From Haliclona indistincta (lineage: Eukaryota > Porifera > Demospongiae > Haplosclerida > Chalinidae), in contig OZ024788.1 in the NCBI GenBank assembly GCA_964017065.1, positions 2,217,021 through 2,281,020 of the forward strand: 64,000 nucleotides of DNA. The letters run 5' to 3'. A program made the position numbers and the translations under genes. The notes beneath the pieces are model-generated. The model saw nothing but the letters and a program-made list of their open reading frames with translations, ran no database searches and was not told the origin of the DNA. Below, piece by piece: positions 281 to 37,300 of the stretch (its first letter is position 1; each line of letters begins with the position of its first letter).

Positions 281-1824
281 TTATTGTGCATCATTTTTGT
301 CATTTTCTTCACTAGATTCTTCACTTGTCATTTCTTCTATAGTAGACATATATTCAGATTCCATATCTTCATCTTCATCACTTGACGTATCTTCATCACT
401 TGACATATCTTCATCTTCATCATTTGACATATCTTCGTCTTCATCTTCATCATTTGACATATCTTTGTCTTCATCACTTGTCATATCTTCATCACTTGAT
501 GGTTCTTCATCAGTTGGCATTTCTTGTTTGCTTTCTTCATCAGACATTTCTTGATCAAAAGTTTCTTTAGAGTCAGCTATCAAATCGTTATAATGAAGTT
601 AGTTAACAATATCAGTCATATGATAAAAAAGCTAACCTTCTGCTGGGGAAGAAGCTTGTGTAGTTCCGCCATCAGGATCGCCATCAGTTTCAACATCTAT
701 AAGAATAGAATTGAAAGATAGGTCTAAATTTTTAACGCTGCTTATAATTCTGATTTACTGACATAGCATTTACAGGGTTCTCGAAGAACCAAACTTATAC
801 CCATTAAAAATTGAGCACTTAAATACCTGTCTTAGTATGATTTCTTATATGCATATCCTCACATCCTAAATATCATATTTTACTTATCCTGACTAAACAA
901 ATGGATTACCGACAGCTGATTTGAACCGTAAACCAAATGGAGCTTGAAAAAACCAAATCGAGTGATTCATTCAAAAACTGCCCAGCAAGAACCCTGTGCA
1001 AATGCACTTACCTATTCTATCAGGGCTTTTAGCTGTAACAACTGAAGAACTAGCTTGAGCTGTATGAGAAGAGATTGAAACATAATTTTAAAGATATTGT
1101 TTTACTATGTGGTTAAAGGATACTTACGTTGGTTAGAGCTTGACGAGTCATCAGGATTACCCATCGTAACAAGCTCATCATCATAATATGTGAAGGTCAT
1201 GTATACTACAAATGTCCTGCTGTTGTTATTTCCTGGTATTTCTGAGTCACTTGATTGACTTGACGATACCGATTGACTTGACGATAATGATTGTCCAGTA
1301 GAATCGCTTTGTGGCTTCTTTTTCTTTTTGCGAGTTGTGGATCCACTTGTAAATGTTCTGTTGACAACTCTTGGGTCAGGATGAAATAGAACATAGTGAT
1401 GGAGAAGCATTTGCTCTATGGCTAGTGCGAAATGTTCATGTCTTTTCCTTCCTTTAAGCTTGCCACGAATTTTACTCACTGCATCTCTTGTGAATGCTCC
1501 CAATACTACCATCCCATCTCTGCCTCGTTTTTTTTTACTGTGCCTTTTCCAGCGTGAGTATGTGCCATCTTCAGAACTGTACTTTCTATTTGAATAGTAG
1601 AATGACTTTCCAATATAGATGTGTTTTATTTTCTTCTTTGAACCATCTTCCAGCCGTTTTATTGTCTCTTCTAATTGATCAATGAGTTTGTCTCTGATTT
1701 GCTCTGTAGATGTCAGTGAGCCTATGTCAGCAAGGTTAAATGCATAGCCTTTAACAGAACTTGTGCAAAGATTTTCGAAGGTTACTGGTTTCGACTTGTC
1801 GCTCTTAGCTATTGGTGAAGCCAT
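281..1824 (-). CDS. GIY-YIG-like domain protein with spliced acidic tail
   Basis: Four predicted exons, 1824-1128, 1059-1012, 696-637 and 576-281, all joined in phase 1 across GT..AG borders, give 366 aa. Exon 1 carries the family domain: GYAFNLADI at residues 26-34, an amphipathic insert 38-65, IYIGKS 69-74, SRWKRH 90-95, MVVLGAFTR 105-113, the helix with candidate catalytic Glu at E137, VVN before FTSG, and a closing strand VVYMTFTY. Exons 2-4 add a low-complexity tail made almost entirely of Ser/Asp/Glu/Met repeats such as DEDMSNDEDE. The order of motifs fits a divergent GIY-YIG nuclease; that is inference, and the function of the tail is unknown. A pyrimidine-rich stretch ending in tag about 24 bp before the ATG looks like an acceptor, so a 5' untranslated exon is likely. 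Exon 1 alone would read into the first intron and stop within about 8 codons. Confidence 0.72.
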
Positions 1825-1885
1825 GGGCTCTGGTATAGTTGATATTTTCTAGACAGCAAACACAAAAACAGAAATTTATTTTGAA

Positions 1886-2090
1886 TGTATATGTTGGCTA
1901 TTGTTCTAACTGATTGTAGCTCAAGCTCTCTTACAGTGTCCTCTAGTTGTGCTATCAGCCTCTTCTTGATAGCCTTCACTTCTGTCTGCCCTGATATGGT
2001 AGCTGGATTGGCTGAATAGTTTCTAACACCTTCTGTGCACAACAGTTCAAAGTCCGCTCCTCCCTGGGTTGTTTTGCTGACAACAGACAT
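1886..2090 (-). pseudogene. 5' fragment of a GIY-YIG-like family member
   Basis: From an ATG giving MSVVSKTTQGGADFELLCT the sequence follows the family through the first motif (here NYSANPAT) and the helical insert to IANIYI. It then leaves homology inside the YIG motif and stops soon after. The conserved leader upstream of the ATG (encoding LNCCA) matches the other MSVV-type loci, so this is the front end of a deleted copy. It lies only about 60 bp upstream of the next gene's ATG, and its leader could now serve as that gene's 5' region. Confidence 0.75.
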
Positions 2091-4871: not shown

Positions 4872-5270
4872 CTAATTTGTTTCAGAGTCACTATCAGAAG
4901 AGATTAGTTGAGAAGGCTCAGGTTTATCATCTGTTATCATGATTGGTGAAGATTCACTACCACTGCTGTCACTGTTAACATAGCTTGGTCCTGAATCTTC
5001 GCTGGTCGATTGTGAAACTGGTGGTGAATCAAGCAGTGTATCGTCTGGAGGAGAATCAGTTTGAGGTAAATCTTCTCCCAGTAAAGCGTCTTGAGATAGA
5101 GTTGGGCCTGGAGCATTTGAAGTTGCATTAGAAGCTAGTTTTGCTTTTTTGGAAGATGTCCTCTGTCCTGATAGGTCAGCTGGATTGAAGGAGTAGTTTC
5201 TAACAGCTCCTGTACACAACAGTTCAATGTCATCATCTCCCTGGGTTGCGGTTTTGCTGACAACAGACAT
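4872..5270 (-). CDS. Domain-deleted family member (N-terminus fused to SIM tail)
   Basis: 132 aa from the MSVVSKTAT start, the same start position used by other members. Residues 1 to about 37 match the family N-terminus through NYSFNPADLSGQR. The protein then passes directly in frame into the distal tail (SSKKAKLASN onward). The paralogue at 21041-22591 shows what is missing: the helical insert, YIG, Arg/His, Glu and Asn motifs and the proximal tail. The end has a SIM-like SSPIMITDD followed by SSDSDSETN. The fusion is genomic and keeps the reading frame, so it could encode a tail-only, nuclease-less protein, for example a competitor for the tail's partners. It could also be a decaying copy that is open by chance. 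Confidence 0.65.
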   Translation of the reverse strand: MSVVSKTATQGDDDIELLCTGAVRNYSFNPADLSGQRTSSKKAKLASNATSNAPGPTLSQDALLGEDLPQTDSPPDDTLLDSPPVSQSTSEDSGPSYVNSDSSGSESSPIMITDDKPEPSQLISSDSDSETN

Positions 5271-6150
5271 GGCACAGCAGTTCAGAAAAAGTCTATACAA
5301 ACTATGAATCTGACGCTTCGGCTCTAGATTCTGTGTACTTGTACTCTTACAAGTATCAATAATATTATTATAGGGCAGTATACTTGACTGTGGTTTGAGT
5401 GTGATTGTGTATTCAATGTCCCTAATGTTATCATCTATAGCACTTATTATGTGGTTATGTACCTCAGGGACTAGCTTTCTGTTTGTCTACAATAAAGTAC
5501 ATTTTGACTGAATGAGCTATGTGATGTAGAATAAATATTATATTGGAGAGATAGAATAACGTGAGGACACTAGCTGTATAAACTGTGTGTTGACTATAGC
5601 TATGAATAGAGATATAGCTGTCAGTGTATACTGTTTGACTACTTTGTATACTGTTCTTTCTAATCTTGATAAATTACATCGGGTACTGTTTTAAATATAA
5701 TTGTAGCTTCCTCTGGCTCAGCTAATTTTTGAATATCTGATTGATTTTGGAAATAGTACTGTTTTTGCTCAACAGATGATTTTGCTCAACAGATGAAATT
5801 CTCGTTTCAAAAGTCGACTTAATTTGCATTACCTGTTTGTTTGTTGAAATGAATTGATAGTGGGTGGAGGAGTAGTCATCCGAGGAGATATAGGAGAACC
5901 TTGTGATTTTGAAATATCCACTGTGATCAATGGCTGTGTATACCTCATTGTCTTAGTGTTATTATAAACTTGTGATTCAAGCCTCATGCCTTGGGTTGAA
6001 TCTGACTAAACTATTGCTGTTAAATTATGTACAGTACATCAGTACACTGTCTGTTTAAAAAATCAACATAATACAATATAATACTATAATACAGATTAAT
6101 ACTAATTTTGTGACTATTATAAAGTTACTAGGAGGGACTCACTGCCCAAA
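5271..6150. repeat. Family spacer, copy 2
   Basis: Collinear with the spacer at 2091-2883 and its relatives, ending with the conserved 3'-flank block (actaggagggactcac...gcccaaaag) that precedes each long-tailed gene's stop. No coding sequence is seen. Confidence 0.75.
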
Positions 6151-6193: not shown

Positions 6194-7130
6194 CTAATTA
6201 GTGTCAGAGTCACTATCATCATCTAATATCACGATTGGTGACGATTCACTATCACTACTAACATAACTTGGTCCTGGATTATCTTCGTGGGTCAGTGAAT
6301 CAAGCAGTGTGCCATCTGGAGGTGAATCAGTTTGAAGGAAATCTTCTCCCAGTAAAGCGTCGTCGGTTTCTACTCCTAGTAAACGATGATGGTCATTCTG
6401 ATGTTGCGAATCGAGTAGCGAATCATCTATTGGTGACCCAGAACCTAGTAACATGTCTACATCTTCTCCTGAACCTAGTAACATGTCTACATCTTCTCCT
6501 GAACCTAGTAACATGTCTACATCTTCTTCTGGAGCGGTAGAAAGACCATGAGATTGATTTTGAGCTTTTTCCGATTCCTCATTGCTCTGTCCATGGATGT
6601 TTGTAACAGAAGTTGATCTTACTACTGGTGTGCGATCAGAAGGAGTGCATTCCATTCTTGAAGAATGCTGAGGTATAGAAGTGTTGCTTGGACCTGGAGC
6701 ATTAGAAGCTAGTTTTGCTCTTTTAGGAGGTGTCTGGCTTGAACTTGTCTGAGAACGTTTTCGTGATAATTTATCTTTAGGATCTTGCTGTAGTATTTTA
6801 CTTTGATGAGCATTTTGTGCTGGCACTGTATTCGTTGGCTGAGAATTAGTTCTTGTTTGTTTGCTTTGCACCTTTTGCAGAAGAAGATGAAGGTAAAGGA
6901 ATAGACTCATGGTTTGGAGGTTGAGACAGAGATATACTTCTGCTCAAAGTTGAAAGCTTTGCACTCTTTGCAGGAGGAGGCGAAGAAAAAGGAATTTTTG
7001 GAGGTAAAGACTGAGGTATACTTAGGCTTGAAGTTGGACATTCAGGTTTTGTTGTCCTCTTTTGTGATTGTTCAAGACCTGAAGTGGTATGGCTTGGTCC
7101 TGGTACTGTACTTGGGACTAATGGGGTCAC
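6194..7130 (-). pseudogene. Tail-only remnant of a family member (copy 1)
   Basis: Only the Ser/Pro-rich tail is present. One frame gives TVPGPSHTTSG to SSAKGAKQTNKN and then stops. The family tail resumes in another frame (TRTNSQPTNTVPAQNAHQSK to the end). Comparison with 21041-22591 shows a net loss of 11 bp at the RSHK-coding site, which explains the shift. The distal part has three tandem 10-residue repeats GEDVDMLLGS and ends with a strong SIM-like SSPIVILDDDSDSDTN. Upstream of 7130 the homology switches to a non-coding repeat, so no nuclease-like domain remains. The copy at 13857-14793 is identical. Confidence 0.75.
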
Positions 7131-7872: not shown

Positions 7873-9037
7873 TTAATTTTCACCATCTCGGTATTCAATA
7901 TAATCTGAACCTGAATCTTCATCTGAATTTGCATCTTCATCTTCATCTTCATCTTCATCTGAATCTCCATCTGAATCTTCTTGGTTGAAATTTTGACTGT
8001 TGTCTAGGGGTAGCAATAAGCATAAATGAGGAAGAATAATGGAAGCTGTTAGCACTACTATAGACTGAATTTCTCAATGATCTCACTGATCTTTCTTATC
8101 ATAATAATAATTATAGTAACTCTAACAACATTATTATTCAGTGTTTTTATTAGTACTTACATGAATCAGTGCTATTATCAGGGCTATTATCCCATGGTGT
8201 AGTTACTTCAGCTTGAGCAGGCTGCTCTTCAGCTTGAGCAGGCTGCTCATATGAAAAAGTCATATATACTACGAATATGCGTTCTTCTGGTTGACCCTCT
8301 TGTTGCTGTTGACCCGCTTGTTGCTGTTGACCCGCTTGTTGCTGTTGACCCGCTTGTTGCTGTTGACCCTCTTGTTGCTGTTGACCCGCTTGTTGCTGTT
8401 GACCCGCTTGTTGCTGTTGACCCGCTTGTTGCTGTTGACCCGCTTGTTGCTGTTGACCCGCTTGTTGCTGTTGACCCGCTTGTTGCTGTTGACCCGCTTG
8501 TTGCTGTTGACCCGCTTGTTGTTGTTGACCCGCTTGTTGCTGTTGTTGAACCTGTTGTTTTGTGTTTGTTGTTCTGCCAGCAGTGAATGTCTCATTGACC
8601 ACTCTTGGGTCAGGATTAACAAGAAGATAGTGATAGAGGAGCTGTTGTTCCATAGCTAATGCAAATTGTTCATGCTTCTTTATTTTTTCTGTTTGTAAAA
8701 CTTTTTTCCAGACACGATCCACTGCTTCTTTTGTAAATTCTCCCAAAATCACCATCCCTTTTCGTTCATGAACACTCGAATGTTTTTTCCAGCGCTTGTG
8801 TGTTCCATCTCTTTTAGTATATTCTTCTGTTGAATAACGGTATGTTTTTCCAATATAAATTTTTTCTATTCTTTGAGAGCCATTTTCAATTTGCCTTACT
8901 GTCTCGTCCAGATGTAAGATTAGCTTATACTTGATGAGCTCTGCACTTGTTAGCTGGTCTGTGTCTGCAACATGATATGCATAACCTTTAGGAGGATTTA
9001 TTGTGCAGAGATCTTGAAAGTCTAAAAGTCCTTCCAT
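7873..9037 (-). CDS. GIY-YIG-like protein with Gln array and acidic tail
   Basis: Two exons, 9037-8161 and 8003-7873, with donor gtaagta and acceptor cccctag in phase 1, give 335 aa. The N-terminal domain has GYAYHVADT, IYIGKT, KRWKKH, MVILGEFTK, the Glu helix ALAMEQQLLYHY and VVNETFTAG, so all predicted catalytic positions are kept. A tandem array of the hexapeptide GQQQQA (a few units with E) interrupts the protein before the conserved closing strand VVYMTFSY. A short QAEEQPAQAE repeat follows. The second exon encodes an Asp/Glu-rich tail ending IEYRDGEN. An acceptor-like tag lies just before the ATG, suggesting a 5' untranslated exon. Its counterpart at 15536-16448 lacks the array and the catalytic residues. 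Confidence 0.75.
8303..8546. repeat. 18-bp coding tandem repeat (Gln-rich)
   Basis: About 13-14 copies of gacccgcttgttgctgtt, reading GQQQQA on the minus strand. Two units read E instead of A, and one has a gtt/gct variant. In the right duplication copy only a vestige remains (15950-15975). The length is therefore unstable, and it is also a risk site for assembly. Confidence 0.9.
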
Positions 9038-10236: not shown

Positions 10237-12212
10237 TCAATGGTTTGGAAAACTTTGTTTAAACTTTTCAGGTCCTATAACTATTTCACAGTCACTGTCT
10301 GAATCACTGTCAGATATCGTGACAACCTCACAGATGTCTTGTGCCTTTGCCTTTCCTGAAGACGAAGGAGATAAGCAAATAATGTCGCTTGGTTCTGCTG
10401 CTGATGTAGAGTTGATGATGGGAAAATGGCGGCTTCGACTTGTTGTAAGAGAATGGTATTCGCTGTATGTGGCTGAAGTAGACAGGTTTGGTCTCTTTGA
10501 AGGTCGAGGAGATTTTCCAGCATTAGGAGTGAGGTTTTTAGTCTTGGGAAGAGGGAGGTATCCTGGTAAGCTTGTAGTTAATCGATCAGAAGGATTGGTT
10601 GGAGATGCTTGATGTCGTGTTGACTTAATTTGTGTCTGCTCAAGACATCTCTTTCTTGAGTAAGATATAGGAGTGGAGTGGGTGTGGCTTTGCTCTAGCA
10701 TCATAAAACGCGATGTGGTAACTGAGGAATTTTGGTTACTGATGTCAGGAAATGTGTCAAGTGTCTGAGGAATGTTTTGAGAGCTTGATACTGTCGCTTG
10801 TTTCAAAGTTGGCTGTAAATTCACTTCTATCCCTATACTTTGTGACCCTCCAGTTGTAAGAGTAATGCTTACACTCTTTATAGTTGAAGAATGTGGATTT
10901 GAAGTGCCACACGAAGGAGAGGTTATTGGCGAAGTTTGTGAATTAAGATATGGTGCTGAAGGAGGAGTTGCTGTATAACGTTGACAAGAGGTGTAGCTTG
11001 AGCCATATGCTGTGCTTGTGTTCACAGTGTGTGGTAGATTAGCTCTTCCTGCATGTTGATCATCGTGGGACAATCTTTCACTATTGAAGGCGGGGATTAA
11101 ATTTCGTGCAGAAGTAAAAGGCTGACGCTGGGGTTGCTTTTTTGGTATCTTTTTCAATATTCCTCTCCCTCGAGGTGTGGACGGACAAGAGGTGTTGCTT
11201 TTCACTATGGTTCGCTTGCTTGCTAGCTGGTTATTGTGACCAGCGCCGGGTAAAGGAAGAGAACTGAAGGTGACTTGAGGCCTTCTTGTTGGTGAAGGAG
11301 AAGAAAATTGATGAGCAGGAAAGTTACTTGGTAGTAACACTACGTCGTCAGTAGCTGTTAGTGATGGCTGCATGTAGCTTGTGTCACTGAGGAATAGTGT
11401 TGGTCTCTGAGCAGAGCTTGTGCTTTGATCATGCTCATTTGCTTGTATCGGAAAGGATGGAGAAGTGTCCATTGGTTCTTCCTCTGAAAAGGTTTCATCT
11501 TCGTATCTGAATGCCATGTAGACTGCATATGCATAAGAAACTTGTTTCGTTGTTGCTCCAGTAGAGAATGTCTCATTGACCACAGGCACTTTTGGGTCAG
11601 GATGAGAGAGAAGGTAGTGATGGAGGAGCTTCTGTTCCATAGCTAGTGCAAAGTGTTCTTGATTTACTTGACTGCTTCTCTCTGGCATTGTCTCTCTAGT
11701 AATGGCACCCAGTACCACTAACCCATCTCTACCGTAGTTGTGTTTCTTATGGTCCTGCCAGCGACTGCTAATACCCTTCTTTTTCCATGTGTTACTATTG
11801 AGTGGATCAAACTTCAAGTATCCTCCTCCTGGCTTCTTTCTTCGCAGAATATAAGTCTTACCAATGTATATGTTGGCTATTGTTCTATCTGACTGTAGCT
11901 CAAGCTCTCTTACAGTGTTAGCCAGCATGTGTGGTGATCCAGAGGATCAAACTTCAAGTGTCCTCCTCCTGGCTCCTTTTTTCGTAGAATATAAGTCTTA
12001 CCAATGTATATGTTGGCTATTGTTCTATCTGATTGTAGCTCAAGCTCTCTTACAGTGTCCTCTAGTTGTGCTATCAGCTTCTTCTTGATGCCCTCTGCTT
12101 CTCTCTGTCCTGATAGGTCAGCTGGATTGAAGGAGTAGTTTCTAACAGTTCCTGTACACAACAGTTCAAAGTCATCATCTCCCTGGGTTGCGGTTATACT
12201 GACAACAGACAT
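10237..12212 (-). pseudogene. Chimeric, broken GIY-YIG-like gene at a duplication breakpoint
   Basis: The 5' part (12212 down to about 11911) encodes MSVVSITATQ through NYSFNPADLSGQR, the insert, IYIGKTYILRK and FDPLDHH, then stops at CWLTL. From about 11916 the sequence jumps back about 130 bp in the family alignment (RELELQSDRT, IYIGKT again) in a different frame. It then runs open to CEIVIGPEKFKQSFPNH, identical to the intact gene at 17642-19474. The YIG segment is therefore present twice across a frameshift. The 3' part could make about 560 aa from an internal ATG at 11928, but it would lack the first motif and most of the insert. Confidence 0.75.
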
Positions 12213-12285
12213 GGCACAGCAGTTCAGAAAATGTCTACGCAAACTATGAATCTGACACTTCCTCCTTTGGCCTAGATTCTGTGTA

Positions 12286-12454
12286 CTGCAGTTTGCAAGT
12301 TGGTTGTCATAGTCAATGGTGCATGCTTTATAGTGTGGTTAGCCTTTTGTAAAATTAGCCATTCAAGGCTTGGTATCTATGGCTAACTTACACAAGACTA
12401 ACCACACTGTCAAGCATGCACCATTGACCATGACAACCAACTTGCAAACTGCAG
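12286..12454. mobile_element. 169-bp TA-target MITE
   Basis: Perfect or near-perfect terminal inverted repeats of about 57 bp beginning ctgcagtttgcaagttggtt. It is flanked by TA on both sides. Paralogous spacers show an uninterrupted gattctgtgtac at the left junction, which supports insertion at TA. TA targets suggest mobilisation by a Tc1/mariner-type transposase (inference). Confidence 0.85.
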
Positions 12455-13856: not shown

Positions 13857-14793
13857 CTAATTAGTGTCAGAGTCACTATCATCATCTAATATCACGATTG
13901 GTGACGATTCACTATCACTACTAACATAACTTGGTCCTGGATTATCTTCGTGGGTCAGTGAATCAAGCAGTGTGCCATCTGGAGGTGAATCAGTTTGAAG
14001 GAAATCTTCTCCCAGTAAAGCGTCGTCGGTTTCTACTCCTAGTAAACGATGATGGTCATTCTGATGTTGCGAATCGAGTAGCGAATCATCTATTGGTGAC
14101 CCAGAACCTAGTAACATGTCTACATCTTCTCCTGAACCTAGTAACATGTCTACATCTTCTCCTGAACCTAGTAACATGTCTACATCTTCTTCTGGAGCGG
14201 TAGAAAGACCATGAGATTGATTTTGAGCTTTTTCCGATTCCTCATTGCTCTGTCCATGGATGTTTGTAACAGAAGTTGATCTTACTACTGGTGTGCGATC
14301 AGAAGGAGTGCATTCCATTCTTGAAGAATGCTGAGGTATAGAAGTGTTGCTTGGACCTGGAGCATTAGAAGCTAGTTTTGCTCTTTTAGGAGGTGTCTGG
14401 CTTGAACTTGTCTGAGAACGTTTTCGTGATAATTTATCTTTAGGATCTTGCTGTAGTATTTTACTTTGATGAGCATTTTGTGCTGGCACTGTATTCGTTG
14501 GCTGAGAATTAGTTCTTGTTTGTTTGCTTTGCACCTTTTGCAGAAGAAGATGAAGGTAAAGGAATAGACTCATGGTTTGGAGGTTGAGACAGAGATATAC
14601 TTCTGCTCAAAGTTGAAAGCTTTGCACTCTTTGCAGGAGGAGGCGAAGAAAAAGGAATTTTTGGAGGTAAAGACTGAGGTATACTTAGGCTTGAAGTTGG
14701 ACATTCAGGTTTTGTTGTCCTCTTTTGTGATTGTTCAAGACCTGAAGTGGTATGGCTTGGTCCTGGTACTGTACTTGGGACTAATGGGGTCAC
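13857..14793 (-). pseudogene. Tail-only remnant of a family member (copy 2)
   Basis: Identical in both translated segments to the locus at 6194-7130. It has the same 11-bp frameshifting loss, the same three GEDVDMLLGS repeats and the same SIM-like end. The damage therefore predates the large duplication. No domain-coding sequence lies upstream. Confidence 0.75.
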
Positions 14794-22591: not shown

Positions 22592-23653
22592 GGCACAGCA
22601 GTTCAGTAAGAGTCTACGCAAACTATGAATTTGACACTTCCTTTCTCCTTTGGCTCTAGATTCTGTGTACTTGTACTCTTACAAGTATTATTATAGGGCA
22701 GTATACTTGACTGTGGTTTGAGTGTGGCTGTGTAGTCAATGTCCATCTATAGCACTACATAAACATGAACTACATAAACTACACTTCCATGTGGTTATGT
22801 ACCTCAGTGACAAATGTATAGTATTGTATACTATAGCACTGTATGCTTTCTGTTTGTGAGTCTCTTGACTGCAATAAAGTACATAGTTGGCTGAATGATA
22901 ATTCATTGCTATGTGATGTAGAATACATTATATTGGAGAGATAGATTGTTTAGAATAACGTGAAGACATTAGCTGTATAAACTGTGTGTTGACTATAGCT
23001 ATGAGTAGAGATATAGCTGACAGTGTATACTGTTTGACTACTGTGAATAGTTTGAACTACAATTTAAAAATAACAATCTTGCTTACAACTTGGTTGAACT
23101 GAAAGTTTGTCTACATCTGGTCTTCATAAAGATCTTTTTAATCTTCATTTGTTAGATCAATTACATCAGGTTTTGTTTTAAATATAATTGTAGCTTGCTC
23201 TGGCTCTTGTAGACTAGCTAATTTTTGAATATCTGATTGATTTCGAAAATCGTACTGTTTTGCTCGACAGATGAAATTCTCGATTTAAAAGCATTGTCTG
23301 TCGTTTGTGAAACGAATGCTATTAATAGTAGGATCTGTGTAATTGATAGTGTCTGGAGGAGTAGATATCCGAGGAGAACCTTGTGATTTTGAAATATCCA
23401 CTGGCTGTGTATACGTGTCATTGTCTTATTGTCATTATAAACTAGTGATTTAAGCCTCATGCCTTGGGTTGAATCTGACTAAACTATTGCTATTAACCTA
23501 TGTATGTACGTACGTCAGTACACTGTCTGTTTAAAAATTCTATCAACATAATAAAAATTAATACTAATTTTGTGACTATTAAAGTTACTAGGAGGGACTC
23601 ACTGCCCATACAGTATTATACAACTTCAGTTTTTTTTCTTTTGGGTATGCTAG
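22592..23653. repeat. Family spacer, copy 5
   Basis: Collinear with the other spacers, somewhat more diverged (for example extra tgtatagtattgtatac). It ends with the conserved actaggagggactcactgccca block. No gene is seen. Confidence 0.7.
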
Positions 23654-25765: not shown

Positions 25766-26875
25766 TCAGCTTTTGGGAGAGTCCGTGTTCGTTTGTCTGA
25801 ATTTTTTGGGTACAGGAGGCAATTCACCATCACTATCTGAATCACTGTCTGATGACGTGATGATCTCACAGCTGTCTTGTGTCTGCATAAGATTGTCATG
25901 AGTAGGTGATTGATAAGAGGTGTGGCTTGGTCCTGGCGCTGTAGAACGCGACATGGAGGTGACGGAAACTGTTGCAAGAGAACAAGCTGTGTTGCTAGGC
26001 TTTGATCTTTGGTTCACTTTTGGATTAGAGTTTGCTTGGGTTTTTAGCTGGTTATTACTGGATAGTGATCCCTCAGGAAAATAGGTATTTGAAGGAGGAT
26101 GGGTATGATCAGGTGGGGATCGTTTGTGTGTCTTTCTTGTAGAAGGAGGAGTTGTAGATTGTGGTGGAATACAGCTCGAGACTGGTGGCGATACGGTTGG
26201 TTGTAGATTAGCTCCTTGGTTAGTAAGAGTTGACTGTCCAGTAGTAACAGGAAGCTTTAGTTGAGAAGTTGAAGAAAAAGGAGTAGTTATAGGTGGAGAC
26301 ATGCTAGGTAATAGTTGACACTGTGTCCTTTTGACGTCCTTTTTTGATAGGAGGTGGTGTGGCTTGGTCCTGGTGCTAGCTACTTTAGGAAGGGGCGTAG
26401 TGCGTGTGCCAGAAACTTGGTATGAAGAGCTTGCAAGTTTATGAGGAATGTGGCTATTCTTAGATACCATGGCTGGGCTGACAGTGTTCGTCGTGGGTTG
26501 TGAATTTGCTTGTGTTTCTAACTGGGTGCTAAAACCATGTGGGCAGTGGCGTATCTAGGGGGGGTGCTCAGGGTGCTCCAGCACCCCCCTTAAACTAGAG
26601 ATATTAATATTCATAAAGTAGCAGGCTACTGGCTAACCTAACCTCAGGCTCTAAGCTCTATAGCTTCATCGAAGAATCCATGATCGAGTGCCGTACAGTT
26701 CTAAATAACGCACACTGTACCAATTATTACACGCAAAATAAACGAAAATTAATTGATAATGAATAATTAATTAGCAAAATTTTCGCGCGCTCATATTCAG
26801 CACCCCCTTCTACCAAATCCTAGATACGCCACTGAGTATTGGGACTAGGTGCTCCTTCCTTGGATGGGCTGCTGG
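25766..26875 (-). pseudogene. Tail remnant split by a hAT-like MITE
   Basis: One frame from about 26543 down to 25766 reads a family-type Ser/Pro tail: TQANSQPTTNT upstream, then SMSRSTAPGPSHTS, and finally CEIITSSDSDSDSDGELPPVPKKFRQ, close to the end of 17642-19474. Upstream it runs into the inverted-repeat element at 26544-26834. Beyond that, SSPSKEGAPSPNT may continue the tail. No GIY-YIG-like motif is found. It is a domain-less remnant, or a 3' exon whose partner is lost. Confidence 0.55.
26544..26834. mobile_element. hAT-like MITE
   Basis: Ends cagtggcgtatctagg and inverse cctagatacgccactg, with further internal pairing (gcaccccc). CAGNGGCGTA-type termini are typical of hAT-derived short elements (established pattern). 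No clean 8-bp target duplication is visible. Confidence 0.7.
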
Positions 26876-27513: not shown

Positions 27514-28893
27514 CTAAGCGGTTGATTGAGGTCTTATTGGAGGACTTTTGTGTCTTGATTTTTTAGCTACACTCGTCAATTCAGGGCCCGAGTCACTATC
27601 AGAAGAGGTACGATGTAGCGGATAAGTTTGAATTCTAAATTGTTTGGGTGAACTAACATGATCATTAGACTCAGAGTCACGTTCTCTTGGTGAAGAAATA
27701 CTCCGTCTAGCATATTTCAAGGAGGCGTGTGTTGAATGTGTTGCTCCCTGTGACAAGTCAAGTGATTTATGGCTTAGTGGTGGATTATCTGAAGTATCGT
27801 CAAGTAATGAATCATCTGGTTTTGAGTCATCTTGTGGAGGACCTTCTCCTAATATGCCTTCATTGTCTATCTTGTCTATTCCTGTTGCAAGGTTGGTAGT
27901 TATAGACTCACGAGGAGGGTCACTTTGTGCTGTTGATGAAATTTCAATTTGAGGTTTTGCTGCAGTTTCTTCACTGTCGTAACTAAAGCCTATACAATTG
28001 CCACATGAAATAGGGAGCGCATAATATACTTCTTGTGCTGATTTTCTTCTTTCTTCCTCTAAAAACCCCTTTAATGTATCTTCTGTGGTTTTCTGCTCAG
28101 ATGCATGTTCTTTTCTTGTCTGTTTTTCATCTCGCTCTTCGTGTCCTTTTCCTTTCGTCTCTTCTGGTTCTTTCTTTTTCTTTTCTTGTTCTTTCTTGCA
28201 CTTTTCTTTTTCTCGCTGATTTGCCTTCTTTTCTCTTAATTCACTTTCTGGCGGTAGAAACGCAAAGGTCATGTAGATCACAGCTGCATAATGATTTGGT
28301 TTAGGAATGGAGCGTGTTAGATCAAGCTCAGGATTATCTGAATAAACACTGATGGATAGTTCACTGAAACTTTTAGTGTGTGGGGATCTGCTTCCCTCAT
28401 CAAATGTCTTGTTTATCAAGATCTTCCTGGCATCAAAGATCTGGAAGTGATGGATGAGTCTCTGTTCCATAGCAATTGCAAGGAATTCTTGAGATCTTCG
28501 TGAGCCAGCGGGCAGGTCATCTCTAGTGAAGACACACAGAACCACCAACCCATCTTTAGCATGATCAGCATTTCGTTTATTTTTTTTTTCCAGAGATGTG
28601 TGGTCCTCCCAACGGGCTTTAATACCATTTTTTATCCATGTTTCAGGATCTAAACGGTTGAAGGGTTGTCCTACTGCCTTGTCAACAAAAGTCTTTCCGA
28701 TATACATCAATTCTATCTCCCTGCCTGATTTATCCTCTATCATGTGTATTGCATCATTCACTTGTCTGACTAGATTCTCCTCCATTTTGACTTTATCTCT
28801 GTTTGACTGAGAAATGTCAATGAGATGATGATAACAACGTGCTCCTTCATACTCTTTCAGGTCTTTTAAAGCAAATGGATCTCTTGCTGCCAT
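27514..28893 (-). CDS. GIY-YIG-like protein with Lys/Glu-rich tail
   Basis: 459 aa, single exon, start MAARDPFALKDL. Divergent member: first motif CYHHLIDIS, helical insert MEENLVRQVNDAIHMIED, ELMYIGKTF, W..NGIKARWEDH, DGLVVLCVFTR, Glu helix AIAMEQRLIHHF, ILINKTFDEG and closing strand AVIYMTFAF. All predicted catalytic positions are kept. An extra segment FSELSISVYSDNPELDLTRS between the Asn motif and the last strand is shared with 32964-34115, so these two form a subgroup. The tail has a highly charged KKEQEKKKKEPEE stretch (likely helix), a CGNC pair, a DDSLLDDTS acidic patch and SSDSDSGPELTSVAKKSR near the end, echoing the Ser-Asp end of the long-tailed class. Confidence 0.75.
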   Translation of the reverse strand: MAARDPFALKDLKEYEGARCYHHLIDISQSNRDKVKMEENLVRQVNDAIHMIEDKSGREIELMYIGKTFVDKAVGQPFNRLDPETWIKNGIKARWEDHTSLEKKNKRNADHAKDGLVVLCVFTRDDLPAGSRRSQEFLAIAMEQRLIHHFQIFDARKILINKTFDEGSRSPHTKSFSELSISVYSDNPELDLTRSIPKPNHYAAVIYMTFAFLPPESELREKKANQREKEKCKKEQEKKKKEPEETKGKGHEERDEKQTRKEHASEQKTTEDTLKGFLEEERRKSAQEVYYALPISCGNCIGFSYDSEETAAKPQIEISSTAQSDPPRESITTNLATGIDKIDNEGILGEGPPQDDSKPDDSLLDDTSDNPPLSHKSLDLSQGATHSTHASLKYARRSISSPRERDSESNDHVSSPKQFRIQTYPLHRTSSDSDSGPELTSVAKKSRHKSPPIRPQSTA

Positions 28894-29445
28894 CGTGACT
28901 GCCTTGTACTAAGACTACGCTTACAACTGACAAAGCGTTGGTTGTACTAGAATTTATTGTGGGATTTGCGTTGTGTATATCATTATGTTATTCATAACAG
29001 CCTAATATGGGCACAAATTATTCTCTCTTCGAACCACACCTTATGGTCACAAGGAGTGATGAATAGACAAACAAAGATAGCCTCGTTTCTGGACCACACT
29101 TTTCTACATTTACGTCTTAAAAAATCTTCATGCTCAGCAGTCGTTGAATGAAGACTAGATTGGTGTTTAAGCTAGATCAGTTGTGTGTGCGAGCTATTAA
29201 TTTTATATGACAGGCAGACATGTTCACTTAGCTACGTCCAGAGATGTGATGCTTTTATATCTCACACTACACTGTGTCCTGTTTCACCCTGCTTATACTC
29301 GTCGTATAACTAGTGCATTCCATTTACTGGGAGTAAGCCTGGTCTTGATTTGTGGACATGATTATTATGTGAAGCAAAACATGTTTGTACGACCGTCATT
29401 GCTGATGCATGTACACTTAAGCTCCTTTAGGTACTTTGTGATTAT
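28894..29445. other. Intergenic, nothing recognised
   Basis: Upstream of the preceding gene. No conserved spacer, exon or clear repeat is seen. Confidence 0.35.
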
Positions 29446-31147: not shown

Positions 31148-31288
31148 GGTTAGAGACCTCGGCCAACGGGATCTACGCGGTATAGAAACCCTCGCGTCGC
31201 CATAGAACCCTCGCGCTACGCGCTCGTGTTCTATATGGCTTCCTCGGGTTTCTATACCGCGTAGATCCCTTGGCCTCGGTCTCTAACC
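31148..31288. mobile_element. 141-bp foldback MITE, copy 3
   Basis: Same length and core as copies at 3111 and 3973: ends ggttagagacctcggcc and inverse, inner arms gggatctacgcggtatagaa. Abuts the foldback element at 30670-31145 with 2 bp between. Confidence 0.85.
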
Positions 31289-31880
31289 TATACTTTTGCT
31301 CTTGGGAAGTCACTTTGGTCATTTTGAGCATTTTGAGCATTTGCTTTTGTTTCTTCTTATGTGAAGGCTATGTAAACTCCATATGCTGTGGGTTGTGTTC
31401 TGAAAGGTTTCCAGTAGTGAATATCTCATTGACAACTCCTGTTTCAGGATGATCAAAGAGGTAGTGATCAAGGAGCCTTCGTTCCATAGCTTGTGCAAGA
31501 TCTTCTTGAGACATTTGAGATCTATTGGACACTGTCTCCTTTGTAATAGCACACAGAACTACTAGGCCATCACAACCATAATTCTGTCTGTGATGGTCAC
31601 GCCAACGATTTCTAATACCAGTCATTCTCCAAGTGTTGGGATCGAGACAGTTAAGTGACATGTATCTTTTTCCTACTGCCTTCTTCCGTGGAATATAAGT
31701 TTTCCCAATGTAGATCTTGGCTATTCTTTGCTTTGAAAGGCGATTTAGTTCTTTAACAGTGCTATCCAGTTGTGCTATCAGCATCTGCTCCATTCTGCTT
31801 CTAGATATACATTTTCCTAGATCCACTAGATTGAAAGAGTATCCTCTAACGCGAAGTTGGCTGAATTCTTCGCTGTCCAT

Positions 31881-32963
31881 GGCAGTATAAATGCGTGCCA
31901 AGGCCGTGACAAGGCGTGACAGGCAGTGACAAGGTAGTGGTTGTATAAACTGTGTGTAGTCATATGAACGGAAGCAGCCAGTAATTTTGAGATGAGAGCA
32001 TGTCCAACAAGTAGCGTGAGATGTGCTGTGTTGATGCACAAACTTCATCTCTACAGCACAATGATAAATTGACATTTCAAGTGGATCCCATGCAACCTGT
32101 AAAATTGCACATGTACAACAGGCACAAACTAGTTTGTGATAATCAGTATTTTTATCAAGAGTAGACTTGTTCAGTACTGTATTAACAACCATGACATCAC
32201 TTACTCTACTTTGCTGTCTTTATGTATTACTAGCGTATTGACTGACTTTGTACACCAATGCTCAAGCATTTACCAGTACGTGACTCTTAAGATTATGAGC
32301 TTACAATCATAACCCCTATGTTGAGGGAATGTGCAAGTAATTGTGATGATACTTCATTGCATGCAACAAGCAAATAAGTTGTCTGCAATACTATTATGCA
32401 AACTCGAATCAACTTTGTTGCATACAACATTTTTGCGCTTTGAATAGAATACTGTTTATTACATGCAACGAAGTTGAGTGGTGTATCATCATCGCCTTAA
32501 GACGATAGTCTACGTTGAGTAGATAAACTATCCTTGATCCAGGTGTGTACATCAGGTGATAACAAAATTAATTACGATCTGTTTTATACATGCATACTTG
32601 CCCTTGTTTGTCAATAAAAAACTATTGAAATGGTGTTGTATCTAGTAGTATCTAAGAATAAGTGTTTTGTTTCCTCTTCTTATTAGTGGTGGTGTGCTAA
32701 GTGCTGAATATTGTTTGTTGAGCATCATGTGCTCTTGTACTATTCATTCACTATTGGTTGCAAACCACCTCAGCACCTCGTGTATGTAGTGGTGATGAAT
32801 CATATTTACTAGTAACTTTGATCATGGTTTTGAATTTTAAACTATGCTGATGATGTCAGGTGTGTAACTATGAATATTATCAGAATCTTTTCAGCAAATC
32901 ATAATTATTTTATTATACAATACATTTCTGCTACTATTTCTATGTTCATAATAATAATTATTA
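31881..32963. other. Intergenic, nothing recognised
   Basis: Upstream of the broken gene and downstream of the next. The open frame running into 32192 is only an upstream extension of the broken gene and is not conserved. No spacer homology is seen. Confidence 0.4.
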
Positions 32964-34115
32964 TTAGACAGTCTGTAGCAATGCTGGTAGAAGGTCTCTT
33001 TTCACCGTTGACAATGGTGATGATAAGGGTTGAATATTTTCCTTTGACGACAATGCACTCAGTGGTGATGAGATTGGAGTCGAATGAAAAAGTGGAGAAG
33101 TGATACTCTCTTCGTCTAAAAGACTTTCCTCGTCTTGAACACTGTCATCTTTTGACGTAACTTCATCTTCTCCGCTATCTGTGTCCGAGTCATCTTTATC
33201 TTTTGGTTTCTTAGACCTCTTTTCTTTCTCCTCTCGTTGCTTCTCTAAAGCTATTTTCTGCTTTTGTCTTAAACCCGGCCATTTCTTCTTGGGTGGTAGA
33301 TAAGAGTAAGTCATGTAGACAACATAGGCGCAATATGTAGGCTCAGGAGGAATAGGAGTATCTGCTGAGAGATCAAGTTCACTGATATCGGATAAAACAC
33401 TTATGGATAATTCACGTGAAGTATCTTTGGTGTGGTTTGTTGTGCCTCCCGGTTTGAATTCATCATTTACAACTATCGTCTTGGTGTCAACGAACTGGAA
33501 GTAGTGGATGAGTCGCTGTTCCATAGCAAGTGCAAGGTGCTCTTGTGACCTCCGTGCACCAGTGAGCAAATCATGTTTAGTAAAAGCACACAGAACCACC
33601 ATCCCTTCACTTGGTACTTTTGGATTTTTTTTATGTCTAGTCCAGCGACGGTTAATACCGCTCAGAGTCCAGTTTTCGTGATTCAAAGGATCGAATGTTG
33701 GTGTCGTTTTTCTTTTGTCAGCATCACAGTGGGTTTTTCCGATATACATCAGTTCTATTGTTTCACCAGATCTTGTTTCTAGTATACACATTGTATCCTT
33801 CACATGCTCTATAAGACTGTCTTCCATTCTTCTTATGTCTCTTTGTGCATGGCTAATATCCATGAGAAAAAAAGAAACACCATTCTTTCCTTCTCTAAAT
33901 GTCGCAGTTGTTGCTGGGGTTACTGTTAACTCGTCCCCTTTTACTGTGCTTCCTGTAACAGTGGCTGATCCTGGCGCTAAGCTTGCTGCTTCCTCTTTTG
34001 TTAATTCTTCTCTGGCTGTAGTTGTAGTGGTAGTTTTTGTAGTTTTTGTTGCACCAGCTTTAGCTTTAGCTGATGTTTTCAACATTTTTGTTGTTGTTTC
34101 AGTTGTTGTGCTCAT
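32964..34115 (-). CDS. GIY-YIG-like protein with Thr-rich leader and charged tail
   Basis: 383 aa, single exon. The first 80 or so residues are Thr/Ala/Lys-rich (KTTKTTTTTTAREE) and unlike other members. The domain follows: VSFFLMDIS, insert MEDSLIEHVKDTMCILE, ELMYIGKTH, W..SGINRRWTRH, EGMVVLCAFTK, Glu helix ALAMEQRLIHYF, IVVNDEFKPGG and closing strand YVVYMTYSY. The extra RELSISVLSDISELDLS block before the last strand groups it with 27514-28893. The tail has a Lys/Arg/Glu helix (QKIALEKQREEKEKRSKK), then an acidic stretch DDSDTDSGEDE and Ser-rich end. A later ATG (residue 11) is an alternative start. Predicted catalytic positions are all present. Confidence 0.73.
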   Translation of the reverse strand: MSTTTETTTKMLKTSAKAKAGATKTTKTTTTTTAREELTKEEAASLAPGSATVTGSTVKGDELTVTPATTATFREGKNGVSFFLMDISHAQRDIRRMEDSLIEHVKDTMCILETRSGETIELMYIGKTHCDADKRKTTPTFDPLNHENWTLSGINRRWTRHKKNPKVPSEGMVVLCAFTKHDLLTGARRSQEHLALAMEQRLIHYFQFVDTKTIVVNDEFKPGGTTNHTKDTSRELSISVLSDISELDLSADTPIPPEPTYCAYVVYMTYSYLPPKKKWPGLRQKQKIALEKQREEKEKRSKKPKDKDDSDTDSGEDEVTSKDDSVQDEESLLDEESITSPLFHSTPISSPLSALSSKENIQPLSSPLSTVKRDLLPALLQTV

Positions 34116-34826
34116 CTTGATCGCTTAGCTATAGGCTCAGACGTACAGCAGACACTATTTCTTGCAAAACTGATGAGTTGGCTGTTGCTCTGAGCTTATA
34201 GCGTGATCAACTTAATGTTTACGATTATAAGCTAAATATAGTATCAGGTATGAATATTAATTATGATGTGATGTGACCACACCTCTCTACAATGTATTCA
34301 GGGATCACATTGTGTTTGAGATTTGGTACTTAGTTCAACAGTCACATCATTAGTTCTGTTGGTGACTTGTCCTATCCAATAGTGAAAAGCTACTGGGCAT
34401 CGAGGGACTACGACATATGCACATGTGTGCATTGTAGCTGCATAACTTTCGTGTATATGTGTACAGCTAGGTCAAACCTAGTCTAACGAGCTATGGGACC
34501 CTCTATCGACGCGAGCGAATCAGTGACGATGGGGGTGGAGCACTTGGAATGAGGCACTCCACCCTCATCTTAACTGATTTGTTCGCGTCAATAGAGGGTC
34601 CCATAGCTCGCTAGATTAGGTCAAACCTAGCATTTAAAAATGTTAATAGACAGCAGTAGGAAAATAATGTGCATAATTATAATACTGATAATGATTGTAG
34701 GGAAGTTTAAAGTACATAGCCAATGTGTCTACGTATAGTGCTAAATAATTAAGTTTCATTATTTGCAGTTAGTTTAGTTACTGGTTAGTTTCAGTAGATA
34801 AAAAGAGATAAATAATTATTGTATTG
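34116..34826. other. Intergenic with a palindromic insert
   Basis: No gene is seen. Contains the foldback element at 34482-34616; the rest is A+T-rich upstream and downstream flank. Confidence 0.45.
34482..34616. mobile_element. Small foldback element flanked by 13-bp direct repeats
   Basis: Arms tctaacgagctatgggaccc and the inverse end gggtcccatagctcgctaga pair, continuing inward through gacgcgagcgaatcagt. It is flanked on both sides by taggtcaaaccta, which looks like a long target duplication or duplicated insertion site. Confidence 0.75.
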
Positions 34827-35663
34827 TTACTTGTGACTACGATGGTCTTGCTTCTCAGCATGTTTAGGTCGACTTAGTAGATAACACTCCTCTTCTAGGT
34901 GGGCTGACTGCCACTTCTTCAGTGACGACACTTCAGCTTGTAGCTCACCAAACATCTTCTCTACCAATGCTTTTAGTTTCTCACATTGCTGACAAGAGGA
35001 AGGAGTCGGGGGGTTGGTCGAACAGGAGCTGGCAGAATTCTGGTCAGGTGCTCGGTCATGAACTGTGCTGGCTGTTGGTCTTTGGTCAGGCACTGTTTCA
35101 AGTTGAAGAGAACGCAGATCAGCTACTGGAGGAGCTGGCTGCTGCTTTTCATATTCAAAAGCCATGTAGACACAGTATGGACGGTTGTCTTCAACTGAAG
35201 TTGTCAACTGTTCAGTTGTGAATCTTGCAGTGAAGTCTGTGTTATTCTCCTGCATCCTTGAGTCAGTGATGTAGTGATCAATGAGACTTTTCTTCATAGT
35301 AATCGCAAATGCGTGAGGAGACATCCTCATTGGAACCGTGTCAATTGTGATAGTACCAAGCACCACCAACCCATCTTTTCCATCGTCGCTGTGATGCTGC
35401 CAGTTGGTTTCAATGCCTCTCATGTTCCACGTCTTAGGATTGAGATGGTTTAGTGTTGTGTCCTCTTTCTTTTCAAAGTATGTCTTTCCAATGTATATCT
35501 TGGTTATTGTTCTCTCTGAGTGAGCTTGTAGTGTTTCCACAGTCCCCTCGAGTTGTATGATTAGCTTGCGTTTGATGACGTTCGTTTCTTTTCTCACTCC
35601 AAGATTCACAAGATTGAAGGAGTAGCCCCTGACATTGCCCAGTTCCTCAAAGTTGTCTTGCAT
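34827..35663 (-). CDS. GIY-YIG-like protein, predicted inactive, coiled-coil tail
   Basis: 278 aa, single exon, start MQDNFEELGNV. First motif GYSFNLVNL 13-21, insert, TKIYIGKT 54-61 and DGLVVLGTITI 97-107 are conserved. The catalytic-Arg position is Asn87 (ETNWQHH), and the Glu of the AMEQ helix is Lys124 (ITMKKSLIDHY). The Asn motif is weak (NNTDFTARFTTE), and the closing strand YCVYMAFEY is present. The tail is Pro/Ser-rich followed by CQQCEKLKALVEKMFGEL and a helix likely to form a coiled coil, ending in His/Lys. The fold is probably kept for binding rather than cleavage (inference). Confidence 0.7.
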   Translation of the reverse strand: MQDNFEELGNVRGYSFNLVNLGVRKETNVIKRKLIIQLEGTVETLQAHSERTITKIYIGKTYFEKKEDTTLNHLNPKTWNMRGIETNWQHHSDDGKDGLVVLGTITIDTVPMRMSPHAFAITMKKSLIDHYITDSRMQENNTDFTARFTTEQLTTSVEDNRPYCVYMAFEYEKQQPAPPVADLRSLQLETVPDQRPTASTVHDRAPDQNSASSCSTNPPTPSSCQQCEKLKALVEKMFGELQAEVSSLKKWQSAHLEEECYLLSRPKHAEKQDHRSHK

Positions 35664-36481
35664 TGTTGCTAGTAGTATAGTAGTGATGAAGTCAGCTTTC
35701 TTGGTTCACCAATTGGTGGTTGCTTTAGCGCACTGCAGCTGCAATCACTCCAAAAGCTCATGTGAATTTTGTTTCATGGGGCTAGGGGGTGTGTCTATCT
35801 GTACCGTGGTCTGTGGTTCATGTACAGAATGTGTACATGCTGTTTAGACATGCAGTATATAGTACACAAGACTTGTTTTGTGGTACATCTGTTTTTAGTC
35901 TGTCTTTCTGTGTACACATTCATTAAAATAATAAACAATGGAGAAAGCGATGAAAGCATTTTGATTTGCCGTTATATACCAGTTGGACTAACATTAATTT
36001 TGTTCTATGGAAAATATCATAATCTCTTTAACAATTTTTTGAGACACAAATCCCCACTTATCCAGCTTGGTGGGGATATGAATGAATTTATGCATACTGG
36101 TGTCTATCAAAAGCCCCATCCTAGTTGCTCACTACTGGGTTACAATCCTCACGTTGCCAGAGCGCTCTTTTTGGGGTATGTGGAGCATTACATTAATAGG
36201 TGCATAACAGGATATTGATAGATTACAGCACACGCTAGAGCAATGAGTTGTTTAGTTTTTGATAGGTGTAACCAGCATTATCAAATTATCTACATGTTTG
36301 TCACAGCAAATTTCTTTTTTGGGTTTTGAAGTGCTGTTGAATTATCAGAGAAAAGTGGATATATAAACATAGATAATGGATAAACTAACATGTACGTGCA
36401 TACATGAGCTTGTGATAATTCCAAGAGTATAATTATATCGTCTTCAGTAGTAAAGCTATTATATAGTGAGTTTACTTGCGA
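35664..36481. other. Intergenic, nothing recognised
   Basis: Upstream of 34827-35663 and 3' flank of 36482-37300. A plus-strand open stretch at about 35769-36218 has no recognisable motif and no splice context; I do not call it a gene. Confidence 0.4.
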
Positions 36482-37300
36482 CTACTTTTCTTGTTTTTTT
36501 TTAGGGTTGCTAGTAGGCGCAGGAGCAGACTTTTCGACAGGCTCTTCTTTTACCTTAACCTTTTCCTTGTAATCACCAAGCTTATCCTTTAACTCTTGCA
36601 CCTGAGCTTCCCAATCTTGACATTTACGTGACTTTTCTTCAAGCTGAGCTTCCAAGTCTTGACATTCACGTGACTTTTTATCAAGCTGAGCTTCCAATTC
36701 TGAATATCTTGGTGGGCGAATTACGGGGCCTTGTCGTTGTTCTTCTTCGGTTGCGTATCTGTAGGCTATGTAGACACAAAATATAGTTTTGTTTTTTGCT
36801 CGTTTTCCAGGTGAGTAATAAGTTTCTTTCTCTATTCTTTCATCATCGCGTTTACATCTGCTAGTGAGTTCATCTTCCAGGCTAAGTGCTAATTTTTGTG
36901 TAGAGTTGAATTCTAAGGGCAATGTTTCTCTTGTGATGGCACCAAGGACTACCAGCCCATCTCTATTTTTGTCGTGATGGTGGTATCTGAAGCGACTTCC
37001 AATGCCGGTCATTACCCATGTCGAGGGATCAAGACGATGAAAGTCGATGTTTTTATTCTTCCTTTTTTCAATATATGTTTTTCCGACATAGATCTTAGCT
37101 ATTGTTCTTCTAGAGCCTTCCTCTAATTTCTCAACAGTGTCGAAAAGATTCTTTTCCAGCATTCGCAACATTTTCTCCTTGTATGATCTTGTCTCTCTCA
37201 TGTCTCTCCTTGCTGCTGTTAAATCTGCAACATTGAAGGAGTAGCCAGGAACATTACCTGCACAAAGTTCATCAAATGACAAATTTCGTTTAGTAGGCAT
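36482..37300 (-). CDS. GIY-YIG-like protein with coiled-coil repeats
   Basis: 272 aa, single exon, start MPTKRNLSFDELC. GYSFNVADL, a longer basic insert, AKIYVGKTYIEKRK, W..TGIGSRFRYHHH, DGLVVLGAITR, Glu helix ALSLEDELTSR (Glu kept) and closing strand IFCVYIAYRY. The Asn motif is replaced by KETYYSPGKR, so it is partly degenerate. The tail has two tandem 14-residue coiled-coil units (ELEAQL.KKSR.CQD / DLEAQLEEKSRKCQD, then a third partial) and a basic end. KVKVKEEPVEK contains the sumoylation consensus form (hydrophobic-K-x-E), a possible link to the SIM-bearing relatives, though short motifs like this are common. It is the last member of the cluster; beyond it the strand and gene type change. 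Confidence 0.72.
   Translation of the reverse strand: MPTKRNLSFDELCAGNVPGYSFNVADLTAARRDMRETRSYKEKMLRMLEKNLFDTVEKLEEGSRRTIAKIYVGKTYIEKRKNKNIDFHRLDPSTWVMTGIGSRFRYHHHDKNRDGLVVLGAITRETLPLEFNSTQKLALSLEDELTSRCKRDDERIEKETYYSPGKRAKNKTIFCVYIAYRYATEEEQRQGPVIRPPRYSELEAQLDKKSRECQDLEAQLEEKSRKCQDWEAQVQELKDKLGDYKEKVKVKEEPVEKSAPAPTSNPKKKQEK

Follow-up and report, generated by a model that had tools for sequence, protein, structure and literature searches.

A stretch of 64,000 nucleotides from the genome of the sponge Haliclona indistincta (assembly GCA_964017065.1, contig OZ024788.1) was analysed, and it is called the window below; it corresponds to C6:2217021-2281020 within a genome of 144 Mb. The window contains part of a large array of genes on one strand. 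We suggest that this array combines ANKLE1/COG3680-type GIY-YIG domains with fast-changing tails, and that its intact proteins are nuclear, SUMO-recruited DNA endonucleases shaped by birth-and-death evolution, a proposal to which, taken as a whole, we give even chances on the evidence of sequence comparison.

Kinship of the array domain with GIY-YIG nucleases

The profile of the array family was compared with profiles built from 28 YhbQ-type domains, from 79 UvrC N-termini, and from 13 bacterial COG3680-type proteins together with the ANKLE1-type domain of this genome. Against the last of these, the unmodified family gave an HHalign value of 30.6% (P 5e-4). When stripped profiles were used, the local score was 26.6 and the global score was 18.1, while column-permuted profiles reached maxima of 20.3 and 11.9, respectively (0 of 150 permutations as high in either case). 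Pairs of accepted GIY-YIG subfamilies scored 19–34 in the same tests (20.5–31.9 locally on stripped profiles) and the array family scored 25–30. Thus, the array family is approximately as close to COG3680/ANKLE1 as the accepted members are to each other.

After removal of two inserts (columns 27–55 and 69–91), the COG3680/ANKLE1 match rose to 92.1% (P 6.2e-7, score 43.6, 0 of 100 permutations as high); removal of the first or the second insert alone gave 85.6% and 61.5%, respectively. The deleted columns were chosen by the analyst, and hence a control with 150 random pairs of deletions of equal lengths was performed. Only one pair scored higher (46.4), with nearly the same stretches gone (33–61 and 69–91), and the next four overlapped the first insert. 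The result stood when ANKLE1 was left out of the target (92.7%), and the reversed query gave 0.3%. Based on these data, the array domain is very probably kin to GIY-YIG domains. GIY-YIG kinship had been proposed in an earlier, sequence-only reading of this DNA, and the match with inserts removed, together with the permuted, reversed and random-deletion controls, speaks for it and for the ANKLE1-type branch. Its comparison of the insert between the first two motifs with that of ANKLE1/LEM-3 was also supported, with 43 residues from Y19 to Y62 here and 33 from Y453 to Y486 in human ANKLE1. The second insert, located between YIG and Arg (columns 69–91), is absent from the earlier reading; both inserts are lineage-specific.

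Conservation was assessed in a non-redundant set of 98 array-type domains with at least 140 of 184 columns filled, to which this genome contributed 33. The conserved residues were Y62 (95 domains), G64 (98), K65 (97), R97 (89), H101 (97), G110 (97), E138 (92) and N156 (94). Y62, R97, H101, E138 and N156 were all retained in 85 of the 98 domains, and 66 had these five plus a Tyr at column 19 or 21. The R-x3-H motif was found in 88 of the 98, in 14/14 COG3680/ANKLE1 rows and in 14/14 rows of a diverged type represented on contig C9 (C9-type). In the HHalign register, YIG, R-x3-H and Glu face YIG, R-x3-H and Glu, and Asn faces Asn in the global alignment.

An AlphaFold model was made of the protein from 23654–25315 (predicted local distance difference test score 91.6, predicted template modelling score 0.89). 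It places Y19 on strand 19–21, Y62 on strand 58–68, R97 and H101 on helix 92–102, E138 on helix 130–148 and N156 after that helix, and this order of secondary-structure elements fits the GIY-YIG fold. The model also contains helix 32–54, in agreement with the helical insert proposed earlier between the first two motifs, and strand 171–180, which corresponds to the proposed closing strand. The ordered motifs had been ascribed to all intact members; the motifs and their order are present, but all seven residues (Y19, Y62, G64, R97, H101, E138 and N156) occur in only 18 of the 32 full-length copies of the array and in 6 of the 11 in the window. One relative, P0019, has two domains on one polypeptide (10–191 and 384–558).

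Some results count against the kinship. The matches to the UvrC and YhbQ profiles stayed near background: 2 and 8 of 150 permutations, respectively, were as high locally, and 5 and 60 of 150 were as high globally. Removal of the inserts did not improve the UvrC match (36 of 100 permutations as high) and hardly improved that of YhbQ (4 of 100). Genome-wide searches with PF01541 and PF22945 (E ≤ 10) scored other loci only among the best candidates, without the array. No library match was significant when two models were compared by Foldseek/VIA-align, and the PDB rows listed did not include a GIY-YIG chain. In addition, Pfam scans gave no GIY-YIG match at E ≤ 1 in nine window proteins and nothing usable among the matches listed for array proteins.

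The loci found with the two Pfam models are, judging by their features, presumably an SLX1-like gene (C9:8045544), an ANKLE1-type gene on C10 and Penelope-like elements on C1, C3, C5 and C7. The separate PF22945 locus on C10 (8433487–8434883) was matched in three pieces. At the loci L010–L014 (C1, C3, C5, C7), the PF01541 matches lie inside frames reading like Penelope-type retroelements. A COG3680-like GIY-YIG protein also occurs on 191 plasmids (141 from Escherichia), and it is annotated as hypothetical in most of the rows listed.

Extent, copies and turnover of the array

Domain stretches were called by a six-frame search with a family-built profile (E ≤ 1e-3), and array coordinates beyond the window were taken from the flanking C6 sequence. 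From 1321 to 37291 the window includes 15 such stretches, each of them on the minus strand and 11 of full length; a tblastn survey gave 14 places. The whole array occupies C6:2164047-2254311, about 90 kb, and extends left past the window. It comprises 38 domain stretches, of which 32 are full length. The array is therefore larger than the 37 kb reported at first, while its one-strand organization was confirmed, all 38 stretches being on the minus strand. To arrive at the earlier count of about 17 loci, tail-only relics such as 6194–6943, 13857–14606 and 25766–26554 have to be included. A genome-wide search with one member listed 46 places. Counting tail matches, 44 of these fall within the array; the others are a place on C9 and a fragment on C2. 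The distant relative P0018 gave 33 places, and the matches listed were only on C6 and in the C9 gene. Thus, the array is a single locus.

The features of the array in the window are as follows (ORF, open reading frame; SIM, SUMO-interacting motif).

1108..1848, minus: domain-bearing ORF (matched core 1321-1791) with short second insert and all seven motif residues
1869..2222, minus: relic, N-terminal fragment of a second copy
4872..5486, minus: relic, truncated N-terminus fused to a tail (SPIMITDDKPEPSQL...)
6194..6943, minus: tail-only relic with C-terminal end SSPIVILDDDSDSDTN, duplicated at 13857-14606
8150..9037, minus: domain-bearing gene with short second insert, QQQQAG expansion ahead of the closing strand and all seven motif residues
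10237..11946, minus: 3' portion of a broken gene, comprising the tail and the domain from column 43 onwards; VVTISDSDSDSD motif at 10306-10326
11910..12338, minus: 5' portion of the broken locus above, read in a different frame, with an overlapping repeat of the YIG region
13857..14606, minus: tail-only relic, copy of 6194-6943
15795..16448, minus: decayed sister of 8150-9037 with Arg for the YIG Tyr and Gly for Glu
17642..19621, minus: full gene, domain 18899-19453, long tail, all seven motif residues
17711..17731, minus: predicted SIM (VVTISDS) in the tail of 17642-19621
21041..22678, minus: full gene, domain 22022-22570, all seven motif residues
23654..25315, minus: full gene, domain 24638-25189, all seven motif residues, protein of the main AlphaFold model
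23708..23728, minus: SIM-like IVILDDK near the C-terminus of 23654-25315, looser pattern only
24773..24793, minus: LALAMEQ motif with Glu138, reference copy
24887..24901, minus: R-x3-H (R97 to H101), reference copy
24992..25009, minus: IYIGKT (YIG) motif, reference copy
25766..26554, minus: tail-like ORF without domain, contains CEIITSSDSDSDSD
27514..28908, minus: type-B gene, CYHHLID, long insert ahead of the closing strand
31248..32219, minus: domain copy, frame broken ahead of the closing strand
32964..34124, minus: type-B gene with a tail of the KEN plus DLLxAL type; C-terminal KENIQPLSSPLSTVKRDLLPALLQTV at 32967-33044
34827..35705, minus: diverged copy with predicted loss of activity (Arg to Asn, Glu to Lys)
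36482..37327, minus: last array copy on the right, with Asn to Lys and a tail resembling a coiled coil

The QQQQAG repeat expansion (8255–8586) lies inside the domain-bearing gene 8150–9037, and considerably fewer units are present in the duplicated sister at 15795. Beyond the right end of the array, the plus-strand ORFs 48127–48633 and 55726–56070 share similar segments (SPTEVAALLQKENIISDEGI and NPAEVAQLLKREKIISEKGI). The former matches SAM, a LIM-domain ORF is located at 54085–54462, and another duplicated gene set is thus found there. The region 41819–42541 is repetitive, open in several frames and minisatellite-like, and 49167–49830 includes an assembly gap of 200 N.

Frameshifted, fused and truncated copies were found (1869–2222, 11167–12311 and 31248–32219), and together with the copies that have lost motif residues they bear out the pseudogenes noted earlier. 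A tandem duplication is evident in the window, where 5655–8339 and 13331–15984 share 97.2% identity and 8506–11918 and 15935–19323 share 94.8%. This duplication is recent, and part of the array is young. The lineage-specific expansion proposed in the sequence-only reading is in agreement with the tree and the duplication data.

Protein searches (three) yielded 111 relatives, of which 18 were identical to proteins of this genome. The relatives include sets of at least 19, at least 13 and at least 14 proteins, which point to clusters in other assemblies. In the set of at least 14, two proteins were identical to array proteins and the other 12 were 50–96% identical over the aligned part, and this set may represent an alternative haplotype or individual. 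On the tree, the subfamilies mix genomes, and therefore the expansion began before some of the splits and is still going on within lineages; the C9-type sequences form a clade of their own (Shimodaira–Hasegawa-like approximate likelihood ratio test 99). The C9 gene (L019:4139-5005), a diverged relative present in one copy, reads 'FSIGKT', with Ser replacing the YIG Tyr, and has His in place of Asn; at least 13 orthologue-like proteins are known from elsewhere.

Tails and their short motifs

Among the same relatives, 84 tails of at least 60 amino acids (aa) were obtained, 73 array-type and 11 C9-type. The sequence-only reading had called the tails fast; they are fast-changing, but not merely fast-evolving, as motifs of SUMO-binding, PP1-docking and nuclear-localisation type recur in them. 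The basic pattern K[KR]x[KR] was found in 41 of the 73 array-type tails (shuffled mean 11.1, max 20) and the PP1-docking pattern RVxF in 19 (mean 2.8, max 8). DLLxAL occurred in 8 tails (mean 0.1, max 1) and KENxxP in 5 (mean 0.5, max 3), while plain KEN was not beyond shuffles (6 tails, mean 2.2, max 7).

Strict SIM regular expressions, which follow patterns in the literature, matched 19 of the 73 array-type tails (shuffled mean 3.4, max 9 in 300 shuffles) and none of the 11 C9-type tails, and it should be noted that the tails are related, so that shuffles overstate their independence. Subclass b was found in 11 of the 73 tails (shuffle max 2). The pattern xIDLT was present in 13 of the 73 (mean 0.2, max 2 in 200 shuffles), and in 13/13 it started within the final 21 residues of tails of 150–537 aa. 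A looser SIM pattern near the end was found in 23 of 85 rows (one protein counted twice), and the rest of the SIM-bearing tails (looser pattern) formed eight groups without mutual similarity at E 1e-3. The case for the SIM rests more on its fixed C-terminal position and its recurrence on dissimilar tails than on the shuffle counts. Besides the kinship of the tails, the prediction is weakened by subclasses a and r, which were barely or not above shuffles (7, max 6; 5, max 5), and by the presence of the looser SIM in only 7 of the 24 tails of at least 60 aa from this genome, three of them in the window (10237, 17642 and 23654). We consider SUMO docking by the array proteins to be a somewhat favoured prediction. 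As a precedent, a study of the S. pombe GIY-YIG nuclease Slx1 reports that its C-terminal IIDLE binds SUMO with a dissociation constant of 78 uM and that binding is lost on mutation (PMC4726241).

Outside the window, at L022:2107-5412 (C6:2172106-2175411), an open frame of 1102 aa carries the domain and a 905-aa tail without a Pfam or PDB match.

Proposed function and comparison with known systems

The following scheme can be suggested for the intact proteins. In the first step, phosphodiester bonds would be cleaved in a metal-dependent manner, with the YIG Tyr, the His and the first-strand Tyr as a base system and the metal bound by Glu and Asn, following the mechanism suggested for human ANKLE1. 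Here the first Tyr would operate two residues off its usual position, and branched or distorted DNA would be cut preferentially. In the second step, the basic motifs would direct the proteins to the nucleus, where the C-terminal SIM ([VI]IDLT or V[VI]xISDSD) would dock on SUMOylated assemblies, similarly to IIDLE of S. pombe Slx1. RVxF tails would add PP1 control, and one subfamily would use another tail (KEN plus DLLxAL). In the third step, tandem duplication and decay would keep the copy set changing, which would fit genome defence (against mobile or viral DNA, at SUMO-rich nuclear sites) better than housekeeping. We regard nuclear, SUMO-recruited DNA cleavage as the likely activity and genome defence as the likeliest use of the array, though one that is in itself still rather unlikely.

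The intact array proteins are, by a slight preponderance of the sequence evidence, predicted to be active nucleases, and several results weigh against this. The HHalign register aligns the conserved Y19 with the position two residues ahead of the GIY Tyr; the column opposite the GIY Tyr itself contains F in 51, C in 16, A in 10, Y in 7, H in 6 and L in 1 of 91 rows. Because this column is mostly Phe, our estimate for active nucleases was lowered from likely to little better than even, and that for defence from a moderately low to a slightly lower one. According to PMC10287932, Phe at this place (Y453F) abolishes the activity of human ANKLE1; the loss was >50,000-fold for Y453F, E551A and N565D, 3500-fold for Y486F and 150-fold for H498A. 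At least one of the seven motif residues is missing in 14 of the 32 full-length copies of this genome, in a few of them by a one-residue alignment shift. On the tree, R97 changed at least 7 times and E138 at least 5 times. Loss of R97 overlapped with loss of E138 (Fisher 0.0003) and of N156 (0.0015), with too few independent pairs to allow for kinship. Furthermore, C9-type rows have Ser for the YIG Tyr in 13 of 14 and His for Asn in 13 of 14, yet the type is conserved, and hence a non-catalytic use of the domain seems to exist.

The Tyr of GYSFNL was equated with the GIY Tyr in the sequence-only reading. It is indeed conserved and located on the first strand, but the pairing two residues earlier makes the equation doubtful. 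The Tyr is present at column 19 in 75 of the 91 rows with letters, and a Tyr is found somewhere in columns 18–22 in 85 of the 91. Being conserved and on the same short strand, Y19 may serve catalysis from a shifted position.

Several of the results that weigh against activity are also what would be expected if the nuclease were retired and its fold served as a scaffold (sensor or adaptor) for binding DNA or protein, with the tails doing the work. The predominance of Phe over Tyr in the GIY column, the 14 incomplete copies, the repeated changes at R97 and E138, and the conserved C9-type clade without the YIG Tyr and Asn agree with this explanation, to which we assign a minor but appreciable chance. 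However, the joint retention of Y62, R97, H101, E138 and N156 in 85 of the 98 domains and the Tyr in columns 18–22 would be hard to explain if catalysis were useless.

It is also conceivable, but doubtful, that the array encodes expanded ANKLE1-like housekeeping nucleases that act, at times set in the cell cycle through KEN and PP1-docking tails, on DNA bridges or recombination intermediates and have no role in conflict. The closest known kin (ANKLE1/COG3680) and the KENxxP (5/73) and RVxF (19/73) tails are consistent with such work. In contrast, the genome has separate ANKLE1-type (C10) and SLX1-like (C9) loci, plain KEN does not exceed shuffles, and a changing array of 90 kb with decayed copies would be unusual for housekeeping. 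One more result weighs against the main proposal, the selection on the domain: the median ratio of nonsynonymous to synonymous substitution rates (dN/dS) was 0.41 over 129 of 528 pairs (dS 0.02–1) and ranged from 0.24 to 0.95 in the 40 youngest pairs. The domain is constrained, loosely in young pairs, and there is no clear positive selection.

A self/non-self or allorecognition locus, with polymorphic tails read between cells or nuclei, is improbable; the set of at least 14 relatives that resembles an alternative haplotype or individual would suit it, but the basic nuclear-type and SUMO-type motifs indicate the nuclear interior. Least probable is a different fold resembling GIY-YIG motifs by chance, given the position-specific HHalign gain on insert removal, the permuted and reversed controls and the landmark order on the AlphaFold model.

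Returning to the SUMO-guided endonucleases, we can outline a bolder version, which is speculative and which we consider unlikely: a polymorphic 'restriction-like' locus, in which dozens of GIY-YIG nucleases would cut viral or mobile DNA at SUMO-rich nuclear sites and the set would be renewed by tandem birth and death. If true, it would give an early-branching animal a previously undescribed, nuclease-based branch of intrinsic nuclear immunity. One locus with 32 extra full-length domains, two new inserts and swappable tails, missed by two Pfam models, would in itself add a branch of animal nucleases. GIY-YIG nucleases are described as relatively rare in eukaryotes in PMC10287932. In this genome, an ANKLE1-type locus and an SLX1-like locus were detected in addition to the array. 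The SIM-ended tails raise the question of whether SUMO targets these GIY-YIG proteins, as it does S. pombe Slx1, and whether this serves against invading DNA. No report of such a GIY-YIG array was found in the titles and abstract openings of open-access literature on GIY-YIG, ANKLE1/LEM-3 and sponge.

Among known systems, the array shares with ANKLE1/LEM-3 (PF22945) the order of YIG, R-x3-H, E and N and the insert between the Tyr-bearing strands, and this family, with COG3680, is the best profile match. It differs in having the N-terminal domain in one open frame, the second insert between YIG and Arg, the GIY-type Tyr shifted by two, long tails and dozens of copies. The array proteins are not ANKLE1/LEM-3 orthologues: no ankyrin repeats or LEM domain were found by Pfam in nine window proteins and four long relatives, and the domain is N-terminal. 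Bacterial COG3680-type proteins (PF22945) have the same domain core, with R-x3-H in 13/13 bacterial rows, whereas both inserts and the tails are missing from these rows.

With S. pombe Slx1, as described in PMC4726241, the array has in common the GIY-YIG nuclease domain and, as a prediction, the C-terminal SUMO-interacting motif (IIDLE in Slx1), but it belongs to another GIY-YIG branch. SLX1 orthology was rejected, since no RING/PHD zinc finger was found in Pfam scans of the 13 proteins and a separate SLX1-like locus exists at C9:8045544. A Penelope-like or homing element was rejected as well: no reverse transcriptase or intein family was found in the 13 scanned proteins, and element-like GIY-YIG copies are located elsewhere (C1, C3, C5 and C7). 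Finally, the tandem array, the copy turnover and the decayed members resemble birth-and-death immune arrays such as sea urchin SpTransformer, with the difference that the array products would act on DNA.

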